A DNA stretch of 22,469 bases from a virus: the IMG/VR virus record IMGVR_UViG_3300033997_000199, positions 1-22,469 of that record; one strand, given 5' to 3'. Every line of letters begins with the position of its first letter. The first letter of the stretch is position 1. This document shows, piece by piece, positions 7,589-13,548 of this stretch. The notes beneath the pieces are model-generated. The model saw nothing but the letters and a program-made list of their open reading frames with translations, was not told where the DNA came from and did not search any database. The position numbers and the translations under genes were made by a program.

Positions 7589-8104
7589 ATGACGCCACGA
7601 GAACTACGCAATGGCCCCCTGGCCGAGGCGCTGTTGCAGCTGCCAGCGAAGATGACCAGCCCGCAGGCCGAGCTGATGCTGCTGGCGATCGGTCTGCAGG
7701 AGTCCGAACTCAAGCACCGCCGCCAGCACGGCAATGGCCCGGCGCGCTCACTGTGGCAGGGGGAGCAGAGCGGCGGCATGGTTGCCGGCTTGCTCGGCTT
7801 CCATAACCAGGATGTGCAGGACCTGGCGCGCGGGCTGTGCGCCGTGCGTGGCGTGCCGGCCCAGCCGCGTGCCGTCTGGGAAGCGATCGAGCACGACGAT
7901 GTGCTGGCGGCTGGCCTCGCTCGCCTGCTGCTCTACACCGATCCGGCCAGACTGCCGGGCCTCGGTGACGAGGAGGGCGCCTGGCAGCTGTATCTGCGTA
8001 CCTGGCGCCCCGGCGCCTTCACCCGCGGCACCGCCCAGAAGCGAGCTGAGCTGCGGCAGAAGTGGGAGAGGAACTATGCCCTGGCGCTGGAGGTGGTGCG
8101 GTGA
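7589..8104 (+). CDS. Putative endolysin / lysozyme-like protein
   Basis: A 171-residue protein starting MTPRELRNGPLAEALLQLPA with a CAGGAG Shine-Dalgarno. The pattern 'MLLAIGLQESELKHRRQ...GNGPARSLWQ' near residues 30-57 resembles the catalytic-glutamate helix and following strand of lysozyme/transglycosylase-like folds, with E38 as the candidate acid. Similar proteins are found in Pseudomonas prophages directly upstream of Rz, which is also the case here. No signal peptide, SAR segment or membrane helix is seen, so release would need a holin. It overlaps Rz by one base (TGATG). Peptidoglycan cleavage is an inference. A virion-associated lytic protein is the alternative. Confidence 0.6.
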   Translation: MTPRELRNGPLAEALLQLPAKMTSPQAELMLLAIGLQESELKHRRQHGNGPARSLWQGEQSGGMVAGLLGFHNQDVQDLARGLCAVRGVPAQPRAVWEAIEHDDVLAAGLARLLLYTDPARLPGLGDEEGAWQLYLRTWRPGAFTRGTAQKRAELRQKWERNYALALEVVR

Positions 8105-8613
8105 TGGCGTGGGTGAGGGTGGTCCCGCTGTGGGCCTGGCTGGCGTTTGTCCTTGGACTGTGGACAGTGGTTGAGGAGCTGCGTCTGGCGAATCTGCGGG
8201 GCGAGCTGGTGGCCGAGCAGGCAGCACACAGTGACTACCGCGCCGAGGTAGCCGAGCGTGATCGCCGGGCGGCGGTGGTGGCTCTGGCTGAAACGAAGCG
8301 CCGCCAGGTGGCGGCCGAAGGGGTAGAGAAAGATGCTCAAGGGAAACTTGGTCAGGCGCAAGGCGATGCTGCTCGGGCTGGTGATGCTCTGCGGCGCCTG
8401 CAGCAACGATACGCAGAGACTGAGCAGCGAGCCCGCCAGTGCGGTGATGCCATCACTGCCCAGCTCAGCGCGGCAGCAGAAGCCGGCGCCCGAATGCGTG
8501 CCGACCTGCTCGGCCGGCTTGGAGCGGCTGCTGGATTCTATGCTGCCACCGCCGACGACAACCGAGTGAGGGGGCAGGCCTGCGAGGCCTCCTACGATTC
8601 ACTCATGCAATGA
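8104..8613 (+). CDS. Rz: Rz-like inner-membrane spanin (DUF2514-like)
   Basis: A 169-residue protein starting MAWVRVVPLWAWLAFVLGLW at 8104. A GTG three bases upstream is an alternative start. Residues ~8-24 form one N-terminal membrane helix. A long charged coiled coil (about 30-130) and a C-terminal globular end with cysteines follow. This is the i-spanin layout: inner-membrane anchor plus periplasmic coiled coil that reaches the outer-membrane partner to fuse membranes at lysis. The gene overlaps the lysin upstream and contains Rz1 in another frame. Confidence 0.8.
   Translation: MAWVRVVPLWAWLAFVLGLWTVVEELRLANLRGELVAEQAAHSDYRAEVAERDRRAAVVALAETKRRQVAAEGVEKDAQGKLGQAQGDAARAGDALRRLQQRYAETEQRARQCGDAITAQLSAAAEAGARMRADLLGRLGAAAGFYAATADDNRVRGQACEASYDSLMQ
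8333..8569 (+). CDS. Rz1: Rz1-like outer-membrane spanin lipoprotein, nested in Rz
   Basis: A 78-residue protein encoded wholly inside Rz in a different frame, as in many phages. It has a positively charged start (MLKGNLVRRK), a hydrophobic stretch (AMLLGLVMLCGAC) and a lipobox-like end where the second cysteine (LCGAC) would be lipidated. The mature part is short and proline-rich (PSLPSS..., LPPPTTTE), typical of o-spanins. The -3 residue of the lipobox is cysteine rather than the usual Leu/Ile/Val, so the processing site is slightly atypical. It acts with the Rz protein to span the periplasm. Confidence 0.78.
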   Translation: MLKGNLVRRKAMLLGLVMLCGACSNDTQRLSSEPASAVMPSLPSSARQQKPAPECVPTCSAGLERLLDSMLPPPTTTE

Positions 8614-9561: not shown

Positions 9562-10491
9562 ATGGGAAATACTACGGCGGTACAGAGTGGTGCGCAACAG
9601 CTGGTACGAGTGTTTGATGGTGTTATCGGTGGGCGGCCCGCGCAGGTGTGCGATGGGCGTGAGCTGCATGTGTTCCTGAAGAACGGCAGGCAGTTCTCGG
9701 ATTGGATCAAGCAGCGCATCAGCCAGTACGGATTCGAGGAAAATCAGGACTTCTCTATGGTTTCACTAAAAAGTGAAATCAAAAATGGCCGTGGCGGCGA
9801 CCGCCGTAGCGTTGACTACCACCTCACCCTCGACATGGCCAAAGAGTTGTCGATGGTGGAAAACAACGAGCAGGGTCGTATGGCGCGGCGTTACTTCATA
9901 GAGATGGAGCGTCGCGCCCATGCTCAGCCGCAACGGGCAAATGATGAGCCTGCGATAGAGCAGCTCGGTTTGCGTGGCTGCAATGTACTGGTCGCGCACT
10001 ACGGTGAGCAGATGTGGTTCAGCGCCGGCAATCTGAGTACGGCGCTCGGGCTGGGCAGCTCCGATCGGCTCGTACGCAGCTTGGCAGAGCGGCACAAGCG
10101 CAGACTGAAGCGCGGTACCCGCGAGCTGTGGATGATTGACGTGGTGGGTGCTGACCGAGCAGCGGATTACTGCAGGCCTGATGTAGCCACTGAGTACAAG
10201 GCTTGGTTGCAGCGAGTGACTGCCCCCACGGCGCAGGCCCACGCGGGGTCGCCGGTTGAGCGCTTTGGCTTGGAGCAGTTGCTGGATATGCGGCTGCTGG
10301 TGAGCTTCGATGAGCGTGGTACCTACCAGGCCAAGCCGATCCCGCCGGGCGCGCTTCTGGTGAGTCCATCCCGCCTGGCCAATGTGCTGAGCGATCCATT
10401 CACCGTGCCGACCGAGTTCTTGCCGGAGATTCTGCAAGCTGTTGCAGCGCGCATGGGGGCTGCAATGCGGCCTGCAATTCCGTCAGGATGA
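9562..10491 (+). CDS. ant: AntA-type phage antirepressor
   Basis: A 309-residue protein starting MGNTTAVQSGAQQLVRVFDG. Residues ~28-100 match the AntA/AntB antirepressor domain: V.DGRELHVFLKNGRQFSDWI followed by RIS.YGFEENQDFSMVS and a DYHLTLDMAKELSMVENNEQG stretch that ends in RRYFIEMER (about 110-117). The C-terminal ~190 residues (LGLRGCNVLVAHYGEQMWFS...) look like a second DNA- or protein-binding module. Antirepressors inactivate the main phage repressor and push toward lysis. The gene follows the Arc-like gene, and both probably start from the promoter at 9287. The stop overlaps a tiny downstream ORF (ATGA), and a hairpin follows at 10576. Confidence 0.85.
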   Translation: MGNTTAVQSGAQQLVRVFDGVIGGRPAQVCDGRELHVFLKNGRQFSDWIKQRISQYGFEENQDFSMVSLKSEIKNGRGGDRRSVDYHLTLDMAKELSMVENNEQGRMARRYFIEMERRAHAQPQRANDEPAIEQLGLRGCNVLVAHYGEQMWFSAGNLSTALGLGSSDRLVRSLAERHKRRLKRGTRELWMIDVVGADRAADYCRPDVATEYKAWLQRVTAPTAQAHAGSPVERFGLEQLLDMRLLVSFDERGTYQAKPIPPGALLVSPSRLANVLSDPFTVPTEFLPEILQAVAARMGAAMRPAIPSG

Positions 10492-10575: not shown

Positions 10576-10601
10576 CAGAGGGCGCCCGTAAGCGCCCTCT
10601 G
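10576..10601. terminator. Bidirectional hairpin terminator after ant
   Basis: A 10-bp perfect stem, CAGAGGGCGC / GCGCCCTCTG, with loop CCGTAA. On the - strand the stem is followed by CTTTTGTT, a fair T-tract. It therefore terminates the small - strand gene at 10604-10684, and on the + strand it closes the arc-ant operon with a weaker tail. Confidence 0.7.
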
Positions 10602-10603
10602 AT

Positions 10604-10684
10604 TCAGCTGGTAAGCAACAACTGCAGTAGCAGCTGTGCCACCCTCAGTGCTTCAATCAGAAGCACTATCAGGAGATTATTCAT
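10604..10684 (-). CDS. Candidate 26-residue hydrophobic membrane peptide
   Basis: The - strand ATG at 10684 opens a 26-residue frame that is about half leucine. It begins MNNLLIVLLIEALR and continues as a leucine/glutamine-rich helix ending in Thr-Ser. It has only two charged residues (E11, R14), spaced as on one face of an amphipathic helix. TAGGG lies six bases before the ATG, and a good terminator for this strand follows three bases after the stop. Within the reading frame, AGTGCTTC / GAAGCACT (10647-10667) would form an mRNA hairpin. The composition resembles type I toxin peptides such as TisB and DinQ, but also generic phage membrane micro-proteins. No antitoxin RNA is demonstrated. It could be a chance ORF. 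Confidence 0.4.
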   Translation of the reverse strand: MNNLLIVLLIEALRVAQLLLQLLLTS

Positions 10685-11021
10685 ATTCAGCCCTAAGGTG
10701 ATGGCTGGATATTGGTGATGTGGTTAGCGCGTGCTAATGTTTACTAGCGTGTATACGTAAGCACAGTGCGCGCGTGCACAGCGGATTTGGTTGTCCAGAT
10801 TCACCATCGCCGCCGCAGACTGGAGAAGACCGAGAGGGTTGCCGCCCTCTCGGTTTTTTTTATCTGCGTCACTACCCCGCAAGCCTTGAGCCTGCGATTT
10901 CAGTATATCCGTTGCGCCTGGCCAATAAAGCCCTCTGCTGGCGCGCATTCTGTGGATAACTTGTGGGTGGATTGTGAGTTGTTCTGAGTTCCTCGACGGC
11001 GTGCCGCGCAGGCTGTGGGTT
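10685..11021. other. Gene-poor spacer between the ant region and the SOS module
   Basis: I see no convincing protein gene here. It holds an operator-like palindrome with arms TTAGC / GCTAA (10724-10737), a weak extended-10 promoter candidate on the + strand (TTGGTG at 10712, TGC-TAATGT at 10732-10740), the strong terminator at 10829-10861, and one exact DnaA-box match (TGTGGATAA, 10951-10959). The longest open frame here, on the - strand, starts inside the neighbouring SRAP gene's 3' end and has no family resemblance. Confidence 0.5.
10829..10861 (+). terminator. Strong Rho-independent terminator
   Basis: ACCGAGAGGG / CCCTCTCGGT is a 10-bp perfect stem with loop TTGCCG. The run of eight T from 10854 to 10861 includes the last paired base. 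This is the best intrinsic terminator signal in the window. It has no recognised protein gene directly upstream on its strand. It may end a small RNA that starts near 10747, or catch read-through from the ant operon. Confidence 0.85.
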
Positions 11022-11762
11022 TCACCGTTTGTCGTTCCTGCCGAGCGGGCGACTCTCTTTCGTGTGCTCATCTCGCGCAATCGGCCGAATTATCTGCGGG
11101 CCCTGGCTGCGCACGTTCCCTACTGCCTTATCGACTTTGAACCATTCGAAGTCATTGGCCTGTCGGCCTTGATGTAACAGCAGCTGCTCTGCGCGCAAGG
11201 GCGTGGTGGCGGGGTCTAACCACTCGCGCGCCAGGTCTGGGGCCAGCACCACCGGGCGCCGGTCGTGCACGTCGACCATGCCGCCCTCGGCGTCGGCGGT
11301 GATGATCACGAAGCCGTCGCTCTCGCGCGGCTCGCGGCCATCCTGCGGATATTGGCCGATCGCGGCGAAGAAGCAGGGCGCGCCGTCTCGTAGGCGGATG
11401 AAGTAGGGCTGCTTGTGCTTCGGGTCGGTTTCGTCTTTCACCCACTCGTACCAGCCGTCTGCCGCCACCAGTCCCCGGTGTGGCCAGATTTGTCGAAAGA
11501 AAGCGCCCGTGGCCACCTTCTCCACCCGGGCGTTAATCGGCGGCGGCATCTTCCCTTTCGCCCAGTGCGGCATCCATCCCCACCTCACCGCTGCTACCAC
11601 CAGGCCGCCGGCCGTGCTGTGCAGCAGCTGCACCTGCGTGCTCGGCGCTACGTTGTAGCGTTCGATCGGCTCGTCACCAGCCAGGCCGATCACCTCCTGC
11701 TCGCTGTCCAGCTCCCGCAGATAGTCCCGCATGCCTCGGTACTGGGCGAACCTCCCGCACAT
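11022..11762 (-). CDS. SRAP-domain protein (YedK/HMCES-like abasic-site sensor)
   Basis: A 246-residue protein. SRAP proteins form a thiazolidine crosslink with abasic sites in single-stranded DNA through Cys2 and shield them. The N-terminus MCGRFAQ gives the catalytic Cys2. The other conserved residues are visible: N77 (PPPINARVE), E106 (ADGWYEW) and H166 (DVHDRRPVVL). Length and motif order match full-length YedK (about 220 residues), with a slightly longer basic C-terminus. A strong AGGAGGT Shine-Dalgarno precedes the ATG. The gene is divergent from umuD with a LexA box ~50 bp upstream, so both arms are probably SOS-induced. SRAP genes often accompany SOS or error-prone polymerase genes. 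Confidence 0.93.
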   Translation of the reverse strand: MCGRFAQYRGMRDYLRELDSEQEVIGLAGDEPIERYNVAPSTQVQLLHSTAGGLVVAAVRWGWMPHWAKGKMPPPINARVEKVATGAFFRQIWPHRGLVAADGWYEWVKDETDPKHKQPYFIRLRDGAPCFFAAIGQYPQDGREPRESDGFVIITADAEGGMVDVHDRRPVVLAPDLAREWLDPATTPLRAEQLLLHQGRQANDFEWFKVDKAVGNVRSQGPQIIRPIARDEHTKESRPLGRNDKR

Positions 11763-11786: not shown

Positions 11787-11815
11787 TTGACGGCCGTCTG
11801 ATTCGACAATACTGT
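11787..11815 (+). promoter_or_regulatory. Putative umuD promoter
   Basis: TTGACG (11787-11792) and TACTGT (11810-11815) are 17 bp apart on the + strand. The -35 is close to consensus, and the weak -10 is overlapped by the LexA box. The predicted start is near 11822, ~25 bp before the umuD GTG. Repressor bound at the box would cover the -10. Confidence 0.55.
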
Positions 11816-11827
11816 ATTAATATACAG
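11812..11827. promoter_or_regulatory. LexA (SOS) box between SRAP and umuD
   Basis: CTGTATTAATATACAG matches the gammaproteobacterial LexA consensus CTG-N10-CAG with an AT-rich core, and the symmetry extends one base on each side (A...T). It lies in the 84-bp divergent region, overlapping the umuD -10 and ~50 bp from the SRAP start, so one box probably controls both genes. Confidence 0.9.
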
Positions 11828-11846: not shown

Positions 11847-12284
11847 GTGGACAGCGTTACCATCCTCGGCCCCGTCGCGCCCTCGTCGGTCACCATTCCC
11901 TTCTTTCTGCCGTCCATCCCGGCCGGCTTCCCAAGCCCCGCCCAGGATCACCTCGAGCAGCGCATCTCGCTGGACGAGCTGTTCGGTCTGCATCGCCCGC
12001 AAATCTACCTGGTGCGCGTGGCCGGAAACAGCCTGCAGGGGCTGGGCATCCATGATGCCGACCTGGTGCTGGTCGACAAGGCGCTCACGCCACGCCGCGG
12101 CGATGTCGTGGTGGCCTGCGTGAACGGCGAGCCCCTGCTGAAGATCCTCGGCGGCGACAAGCACCAGGTCATCCTGCTGTCCGCCAACCCGCAGTATTCA
12201 CCGCGCTACATCATGGAGTCCGAGGAGTTCCAGATCTGGGGCGTGTACATCGGCCTGTGCCGGGTAGGGCGCGCCAGTGGCTGA
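11847..12284 (+). CDS. umuD: UmuD-like translesion polymerase subunit / S24 peptidase
   Basis: A 145-residue protein from a GTG start at 11847, whose N-terminal length matches E. coli UmuD (139 residues). UmuD self-cleaves with RecA* and then activates the polymerase UmuC. The LexA-like serine/lysine dyad is present: S62 in [16 protein letters not shown] and K99 in NGEPLLKIL. The cleavage region [16 protein letters not shown] suggests a cut between A26 and G27, equivalent to C24-G25 of E. coli. The gene lies just downstream of a LexA box and overlaps umuC by 8 bp. It looks intact. Confidence 0.95.
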
Positions 12285-13548
12285 GCGCGCCTTCGCCCTG
12301 ATCGACTGCAACTCGTTCTACTGTAGTTGCGAGCGGGTCTTTCGACCGGAGCTGGCTCGCACGCCCATCGTGGTGCTGAGCAATAACGATGGGTGCGTGG
12401 TGAGCCGCACGGCCGAGGCCAAGGCGCTGGGCGTGAAGATGGGCGAGCCCTGGCACCAGATCAGGAAGCGCTACGAGGCGGCTGGCGGCATGGCTTTCAG
12501 CTCGAACTACGCGCTGTACGGTGACATGAGCGAGCGGGTGATGACCATCATCGAGAGCCTGGTGCCGGCGCTGGAGGTGTACAGCATCGACGAGGCCTTC
12601 GCCGAGCTAACCGGAATCCCTGGCGATCTTGAGCCGCTGGGCCGGGAGATTCGCGCTCAGGTCCTTGCCGGCACCGGCATCCCCACCGGAGTGGGCATTG
12701 GTCCGAGCAAGACGCTGGCGAAGCTGGCCAACTACGCCGCTAAGCGCTGGCAGAGGCAGACAGGCGGAGTAGTAGATATCCGTGATCCGGAACGCCGCGA
12801 AAAGCTGCTGCGCGCGGTGCCGGTCTCCGAAGTGTGGGGCGTCGGCCGCCGTCTGACCGAGAGGCTCGGCGCCATGAGCATCCAGACCGCCTGGGACCTG
12901 GCCACGGCCGATGCCTGGACCCTGCGCAAGCAGTTCAACGTGGTGCTGGAGAAGACAGCCCGCGAGCTGCGCGGCACCGCCTGTCTGGAGCTGGATGGCG
13001 TGGCGCCGCCGAAGCAGGAGATCTGCTGCAGTCGCTCCTTCGGTTCGCGGCTGCAGCATCTGGAGCCGATCCGGGAGGCGGTGGCCACCTATGCGGCCAG
13101 GGCCTGCGAGAAGCTGCGGCAGCAGGGTTCCGTGTGCAAGCGCGTGCGCGTGAGCATCCGTACCGGCATGTTCAATCCGGACGAGCCGAAGTTCGCCCGG
13201 GGAGTATTGTGCGAGCTGCCTTATCCCAGCGACGACACCCGGCTGATAAGTCATGCTGCGTTGGCTGGCCTAGAACAGATATACCGGCCCGGCTTTGCTT
13301 TCAGCAAGGCCGAGGTGCTGCTGCTTGATCTGTGTCACCGAGGTGAGTACACCGACGACCTGTTCGCCCCGACACAGTCGGAGGCCTCCCGCCGGGTGAT
13401 GGCGGTGCTGGATGCCGTGAATGCGAAGTGGGGCAGGGGGACGCTGCGCCCTGGCGTTGTGCCACCCACGCCGGGCTGGGGGATGAAGCGGGAGATGATG
13501 AGCCGAAGCTTCACGACCAGTCTGGACGGGTTGTTGGTTGTGCGCTGA
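12277..13548 (+). CDS. umuC: UmuC-like Y-family DNA polymerase V catalytic subunit
   Basis: A 423-residue protein, the same length as E. coli UmuC (422), starting at GTG 12277 within the end of umuD. Y-family motifs are intact: [18 protein letters not shown] with metal ligand D10, and [11 protein letters not shown] with D105-E106. The helix-hairpin-helix region follows ([20 protein letters not shown]), then the little-finger domain and a DDLF stretch near residue 360 that could act as a beta-clamp contact. With UmuD' it carries out error-prone lesion bypass during SOS. On a mobile element it raises mutagenesis and UV tolerance of the host or phage. There are no frameshifts or missing catalytic residues. 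Confidence 0.96.

Follow-up and report, generated by a model that had tools for sequence, protein, structure and literature searches.

The window, the whole stretch of DNA that was analysed, is a virus record of 22.5 kb. Tail genes can be recognised in it by their position and ORF content, and it also encodes a spanin (8062-8613), an Arc-like protein, an HsdR-N-like endonuclease and an integrase. Its first complete ORF (99-290) opens with near-identical MEQQRRAGGAA tandem repeats. The gene studied here encodes a micropeptide, MNNLLIVLLIEALRVAQLLLQLLLTS, and its neighbouring features are listed in Table 1. The initial annotation had described this ORF, which gene callers miss, and its coordinates, translation and composition were correct: 26 residues, among them 11 leucines (42%), one glutamate and one arginine. 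The ribosome-binding site, the perfect internal hairpin and the good terminator directly after the ORF that it reported are also present.

Table 1. Features of the micropeptide locus and its surroundings in the window
Feature	Position	Strand	Remarks
AntA-type antirepressor gene	9562-10491	+	Convergent with the peptide gene; family search
Intrinsic terminator of the peptide mRNA	10576-10601	-	11-pair stem, T-rich tail CTTTTGTTG
Micropeptide ORF with stop codon	10604-10684	-	MNNLLIVLLIEALRVAQLLLQLLLTS; translation, protein-level conservation, pN/pS, leave-one-out profile test
Perfect 8-bp hairpin within the ORF	10647-10667	-	Only partial in relatives
Predicted Shine-Dalgarno AGGG	10691-10694	-	6 nt ahead of the ATG; from sequence
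Predicted promoter of the divergent small RNA	10712-10740	+	TTGGTG-N17-(TGC)TAATGT, extended -10; inside the peptide mRNA leader region
Perfect inverted repeat TTAGCGCGTGCTAA, possible operator	10724-10737		Overlaps the promoter; single site in the window
Predicted divergent small RNA, ~120 nt	10747-10866	+	Promoter and terminator conservation
GTCCAGATTC block	10793-10802	+	Invariant in three class A units; alignment A2
Terminator of the divergent RNA	10829-10861	+	Stem covaries
SRAP gene	11022-11762	-	Upstream of the peptide gene, same strand; Pfam PF02586
LexA box CTGTATTAATATACAG	11812-11827		Between SRAP and umuD
UmuD-like S24 peptidase gene	11847-12284	+	Family search
UmuC-like Y-family polymerase gene	12277-13548	+	Family search

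The peptide ORF is a real gene, conserved at the protein level in Pseudomonas prophages, and not a chance reading frame. With the low-complexity filter switched off, a search of fetched loci (mainly 64 SRAP loci) recovered the peptide at the same place in two other prophages, L011 (MPSQIVALLIEMLRLLQLLVQLLLTS) and L010 (MHTALLLMVLIEALRTLQLLLQIIFLN); a peptide identical to that of L011 is found in Pseudomonas sp. AOB-7. Profile searches of Pseudomonadaceae genomes and a pattern scan of viral contigs, which made no use of position, added MAIFIEVLRVIQLLLEIYITTM, MLTANLIIVLCIEVLRWLQCLQLASLLRF, MSTFNLLIIFCIEVVRWLQLLELEKLLQH, MHTINLIITLCIEVVRLLQYMQLEKLLQL, MHTIDLIITLCIEVVRWLQYLQLEKLLQL, MSTFNLFLILCIEVVRWIHLLQLEKLLQY, MFKALIIMLMIEVVKLLQILCA, MLKELLVMLLIEVVKLLQILLT and MKLFELFLTLCIEIVRLLQMISRM. 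The last three, with profile E-values of 0.0056, 0.033 and 0.012, respectively, were accepted because of their position. In total, 11 further distinct members of 22-29 aa were detected elsewhere among Pseudomonas-type prophages and genomes. Their common core is I-E-x-[LV]-[RK]-x-x-[QH], in which I-E-x-[LV]-[RK] is invariant and a glutamine or histidine follows three residues on. The family is rare: clear matches occur in 4 of the 398 Pseudomonas genomes searched.

Leave-one-out profile scores exceeded those of all 500 composition-matched shuffles for each of the eight members known at that stage. In most member pairs the majority of changes fall at third codon positions. The pN/pS ratio is 0.08-0.38 in class B, where the last codons of the peptide ORF overlap the 3' end of a methylase gene and only the part not overlapping dam was counted, and 0.52-0.68 in class A, with pS near saturation. 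A Ka/Ks-type comparison had been proposed with the initial annotation, equal synonymous and nonsynonymous change being named as the outcome against a protein; the ratios do not speak against one. GRAVY values span 0.86-1.67 in the eight members measured and the best 19-residue mean of the window peptide is 2.12, consistent with a short hydrophobic peptide that has one predicted membrane helix.

No model in Pfam, NCBIfam or PADLOC matches the peptide family, PHROG gave no meaningful match (one model reached E 0.27 with one member, a chance-level value), and Rfam returned none at the gathering score. The sub-threshold Rfam matches sbrA, ctRNA_pGA1 and NsiR1 look hairpin-driven and were set aside. 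Nothing relevant came up when phage and plasmid records were searched with DNA and by tblastn; the tblastn negatives are uninformative, since leucine-rich queries are probably masked by the low-complexity filter. The earlier view of an undescribed phage micro-protein in an accessory position is borne out. Among other pattern matches, L002, L073-074, L077-086, L088-091, L100 and L105-114 were discarded as chance, L094-097, L099, L119-121 and L132 as frames of other genes or weak, and L103/L104 (MMLLVEAVRLSQRLLQ...) as differing in context. The peptide is absent from the nearest AntA relatives (L003-L005) and, apart from L010 and L011, from the SRAP relatives.

The expression signals of the gene are conserved to different degrees. 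GGAG or AGGA occurs in relatives where the window gene has its AGGG, and a stem with altered letters also lies 3' of the ORF in L010, L011 and L125. The internal hairpin is partially retained in the two nearest relatives and is not needed to explain the locus. The peptide transcript region folds at -72.2 kcal/mol versus -49.6 kcal/mol for shuffles (z -5.5), a stability that stems mainly from the terminator and two hairpins. The start region is not unusually sequestered, and a reading built on its sequestration was rejected as not systematic. In class A no clear sigma-70 promoter was found for the peptide gene itself. Class B genes have a near-consensus sigma-70 promoter, TTGACA/T-N17/18-[TC]TAAAT, and because of it the class B peptide may be expressed in lysogens, which would fit exclusion as well as a toxin. 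Short tandem repeats precede the class B genes, in the stretch that leads from the SRAP/umuD side to the peptide promoter (L127:3820-3975; L122 upstream of 8067 on the minus strand; L123 ~8220-8260; L124:1140-1420); their unit is AAATCAAC in L127 and L122 and a longer one of ~24 bp in L124.

The peptide gene occupies the same junction in 10 of 12 loci, most of them found blind to synteny: it is convergent with the end of a late or lysis gene or with a D12 DNA methylase gene, and usually lies just downstream of a SRAP-umuDC module with a LexA box. UmuC or UmuD is encoded upstream of the peptide, within 0.6-3.4 kb, in nine of the 12 distinct loci (as a UmuC fragment in one); most of the nine have SRAP on the peptide strand, and SRAP and umuD usually flank a LexA box. 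Seven of 12 loci have a D12 adenine methylase gene convergent with the peptide gene, in most cases with a LexA-like box at its start, and such a gene also faces the L011-type peptide copy of AOB-7; in other loci its place is taken by a spanin/Rz or AntA gene. The SOS module is lacking, in the stretch read, only at G080, which has the methylase alone, and G006, which has neither; no umuDC or SRAP was detected in these two. In G490, which lacks SRAP, an Rz gene lies on one side of the peptide and a LexA box with a dinB gene on the other.

Several of these islands have further features of their own. G637 carries two diverged peptide copies (L135 and L136), each between a D12 methylase gene and a SRAP-umuDC module, that is, two related islands in one host. 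A LexA-like box of the CTGTATGGATAAACAG form lies just upstream of the D12 adenine methylase gene at L123:7094, L126:6561 and L127:5075, which suggests that the DNA methylase of these prophages is SOS-induced. Near the G006 peptide (L122:7339-7740 and the ORF upstream) we noted a candidate type II toxin-like protein (MAKRFIPLPAPGDIVWCKFPE...) and a candidate antitoxin.

No LexA box lies at the promoter of the peptide gene, which in this respect falls outside the SOS (LexA) regulon; a scan of the window found only the box between SRAP and umuD. The terminator scan detected no minus-strand terminator between SRAP and the peptide gene, and read-through from one into the other could occur.

Alignment of the three class A units revealed a second conserved set of signals, on the plus strand, with the form TTGGTG-N17/18-(TGC)TA...T. 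The motif TTGGT[GC]-N17/18-TGCTA is found at the same place in five loci (the window, L011, L010, L130/L135 and L133/L136); the class C form, TTGGTC-N17-(TGC)TAACGT in two loci, had no part in its definition. Over 1.2 Mb of strand, counted without the copies at L010 and L011, the motif appears only at three peptide loci, namely the window and the two of class C. In the stem of the divergent terminator, a comparison of three sequences shows five pairs with both partners changed, and terminators facing away from the peptide, roughly 140-165 nt upstream of its ATG, occur in at least seven loci. These signals predict an adjacent divergent small RNA gene. Its promoter and that of the peptide appear to overlap face to face, and the peptide mRNA must therefore cross the promoter of the RNA. 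The inverted repeat over this promoter has at least one match in 14 of 100 shuffles too, so it is weak on its own. Reading the GAATCTGGAC block as a leader ORF (NLD in each of the three class A units) was considered and dropped, the frame being confined to class A.

Antisense pairing in trans is one of the defining features of type I systems. As a control, agrB pairs with dinQ at -55.1 kcal/mol, while the best of 100 shuffles reaches -30.3. Nothing comparable was found between the class A RNA and the peptide mRNA (p ~0.33 in the window, 0.7 in L010, 0.03 in L011), and cognate pairs were no better than non-cognate ones. The divergent RNA therefore lacks extended trans antisense complementarity; a short cis overlap may exist between the 5' ends of this RNA and the peptide mRNA. 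The type I toxin-like character ascribed to the locus at the outset is thus upheld in part: the style of the peptide and its SOS neighbours agree with it, but an antisense antitoxin, a LexA box of its own and homology to DinQ were not found. It is plausible in mechanism and unproven.

Coding conservation, a common core, synteny, a Shine-Dalgarno and terminator of its own and a conserved predicted divergent RNA characterize the peptide gene. We consider the chances about even that it belongs to an undescribed Pseudomonas prophage family of SOS-island inner-membrane micropeptides working like TisB and DinQ. The peptide would be carried in an SOS cargo island with SRAP, umuDC and often a D12 methylase that has a LexA box of its own. 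It would insert into the inner membrane as a single-pass helix, self-associate along its narrow polar stripe (E, R, Q, Q) and, when abundant, cause an ion or proton leak in the manner of TisB and DinQ. The divergent promoter would hold the peptide low, either by competing within the promoter region that the two share or because the 5' ends overlap, and DNA damage would raise its level by read-through from the LexA-controlled SRAP gene. We favour this explanation because homologues found without regard to position fall at the same dam/lysis-peptide-SRAP-umuDC junction, and because of the pN/pS ratios and the leave-one-out test, the DinQ-like hydropathy and polar stripe, the conserved divergent promoter and terminator, and the LexA box 5' of SRAP. 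It is weakened by the absence of trans antisense complementarity, of a LexA box at the peptide promoter and of DinQ homology, by a start region that is not unusually sequestered, and by the class B sigma-70 promoter, which fits exclusion equally. More tentatively, and with rather low confidence, we propose that the level of the peptide is set by the face-to-face divergent promoter and small RNA and not by antisense pairing, in a toxin-like or exclusion module. If so, this would be an RNA-partnered module with a mode of control different from that of known type I systems.

The peptide might instead serve lysogenic conversion, produced from its own promoter in the lysogen and binding a host membrane protein or the injection machinery, such that superinfecting phages are excluded as by PfsE. 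The accessory site where the late operon ends, on the strand opposite to it, the TTGACA-type promoters of class B and the invariant polar residues, which could form a binding face, are compatible with such a role. We regard it as unlikely, given that the sequence shows no sign of the YXWGW of PfsE and that the association with SOS genes is left unexplained. Many small single-pass peptides modulate partner proteins, and a non-toxic regulatory micropeptide acting on a partner from the host or the SOS module would agree with the strong conservation of the E, R and Q face and with the SRAP and umuDC genes often found alongside. Against this, the loci share no constant partner, with umuDC and SRAP undetected in G006 and G080 and SRAP missing from G490, and the adjoining predicted divergent RNA suggests that the level must stay down; we think this role quite unlikely. 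A holin-like or pinholin-like accessory to lysis is very improbable: spanin and endolysin genes do adjoin in several loci, but the peptide gene lies on the strand opposite the late operon, ends in a terminator of its own and in class B starts from a separate promoter, and described holins are much longer. That the RNA is the functional product and the ORF incidental is disfavoured already, to the point of being hardly credible, for despite the very stable RNA fold and the conserved divergent RNA signals it is opposed by codon-pattern selection and protein-profile conservation across diverged DNA.

The analysis adds to Pseudomonas prophages a new conserved micropeptide family that annotation has overlooked, and locates it in a DNA-damage cargo island that recurs. 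Peptides of the TisB/DinQ type are best known from enterobacteria. Should this family be their Pseudomonas prophage counterpart, SOS induction of prophages would be tied to membrane potential, and with antisense pairing missing, how the peptide is controlled becomes a testable question.

Among known peptides, PfsE (Pf4 PA0721) is likewise a phage-borne Pseudomonas peptide of about 30 aa and acts at the inner membrane. With its 30 residues it blocks superinfecting phages through PilC and has a conserved YXWGW motif (PMC8764522). PfsE comes from another phage type, and the aromatic motif is absent from the family alignment A4.

TisB/IstR-1 of E. coli shares with the window peptide an SOS context and a small RNA partner nearby, which at the window locus is a predicted one. 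The two differ in that the window peptide has one acidic and one basic residue where TisB has an alternating ladder, and in that no antisense pairing was found at the window peptide. They are similar in length and in the hydrophobic helix with a narrow polar strip (PMC8309996), predicted for the window peptide.

DinQ/AgrB of E. coli K-12 differs from the window locus in the 31-nt antisense complementarity and the LexA operators of the dinQ promoter (PMC3567139), both lacking in the prophage-borne window gene. Scored against the family profile, DinQ (VIDKAIIVLGALIALLELIRFLLQLLN as printed for K-12, with a GTG start) reached 4.3 bits; because 152 of 1000 DinQ shuffles did as well or better, homology cannot be claimed, and by sequence DinQ does not join the family. 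The resemblance to TisB and DinQ remarked on in the initial annotation holds at the level of length, hydrophobicity, the E-x2-R-x2/3-Q polar stripe and adjoining SOS genes. DinQ is a hydrophobic single helix of 27 aa, similar to the window peptide in length and hydropathy, and both have an SOS link and a divergently transcribed small RNA, predicted in our case. The E-x2-R-x3-Q patch of DinQ (PMC8309996), formed by E17, R20 and Q24 in a peptide with depolarising action (PMC8309996, PMC3567139), is matched in the window peptide by E11-R14-Q17-Q21.
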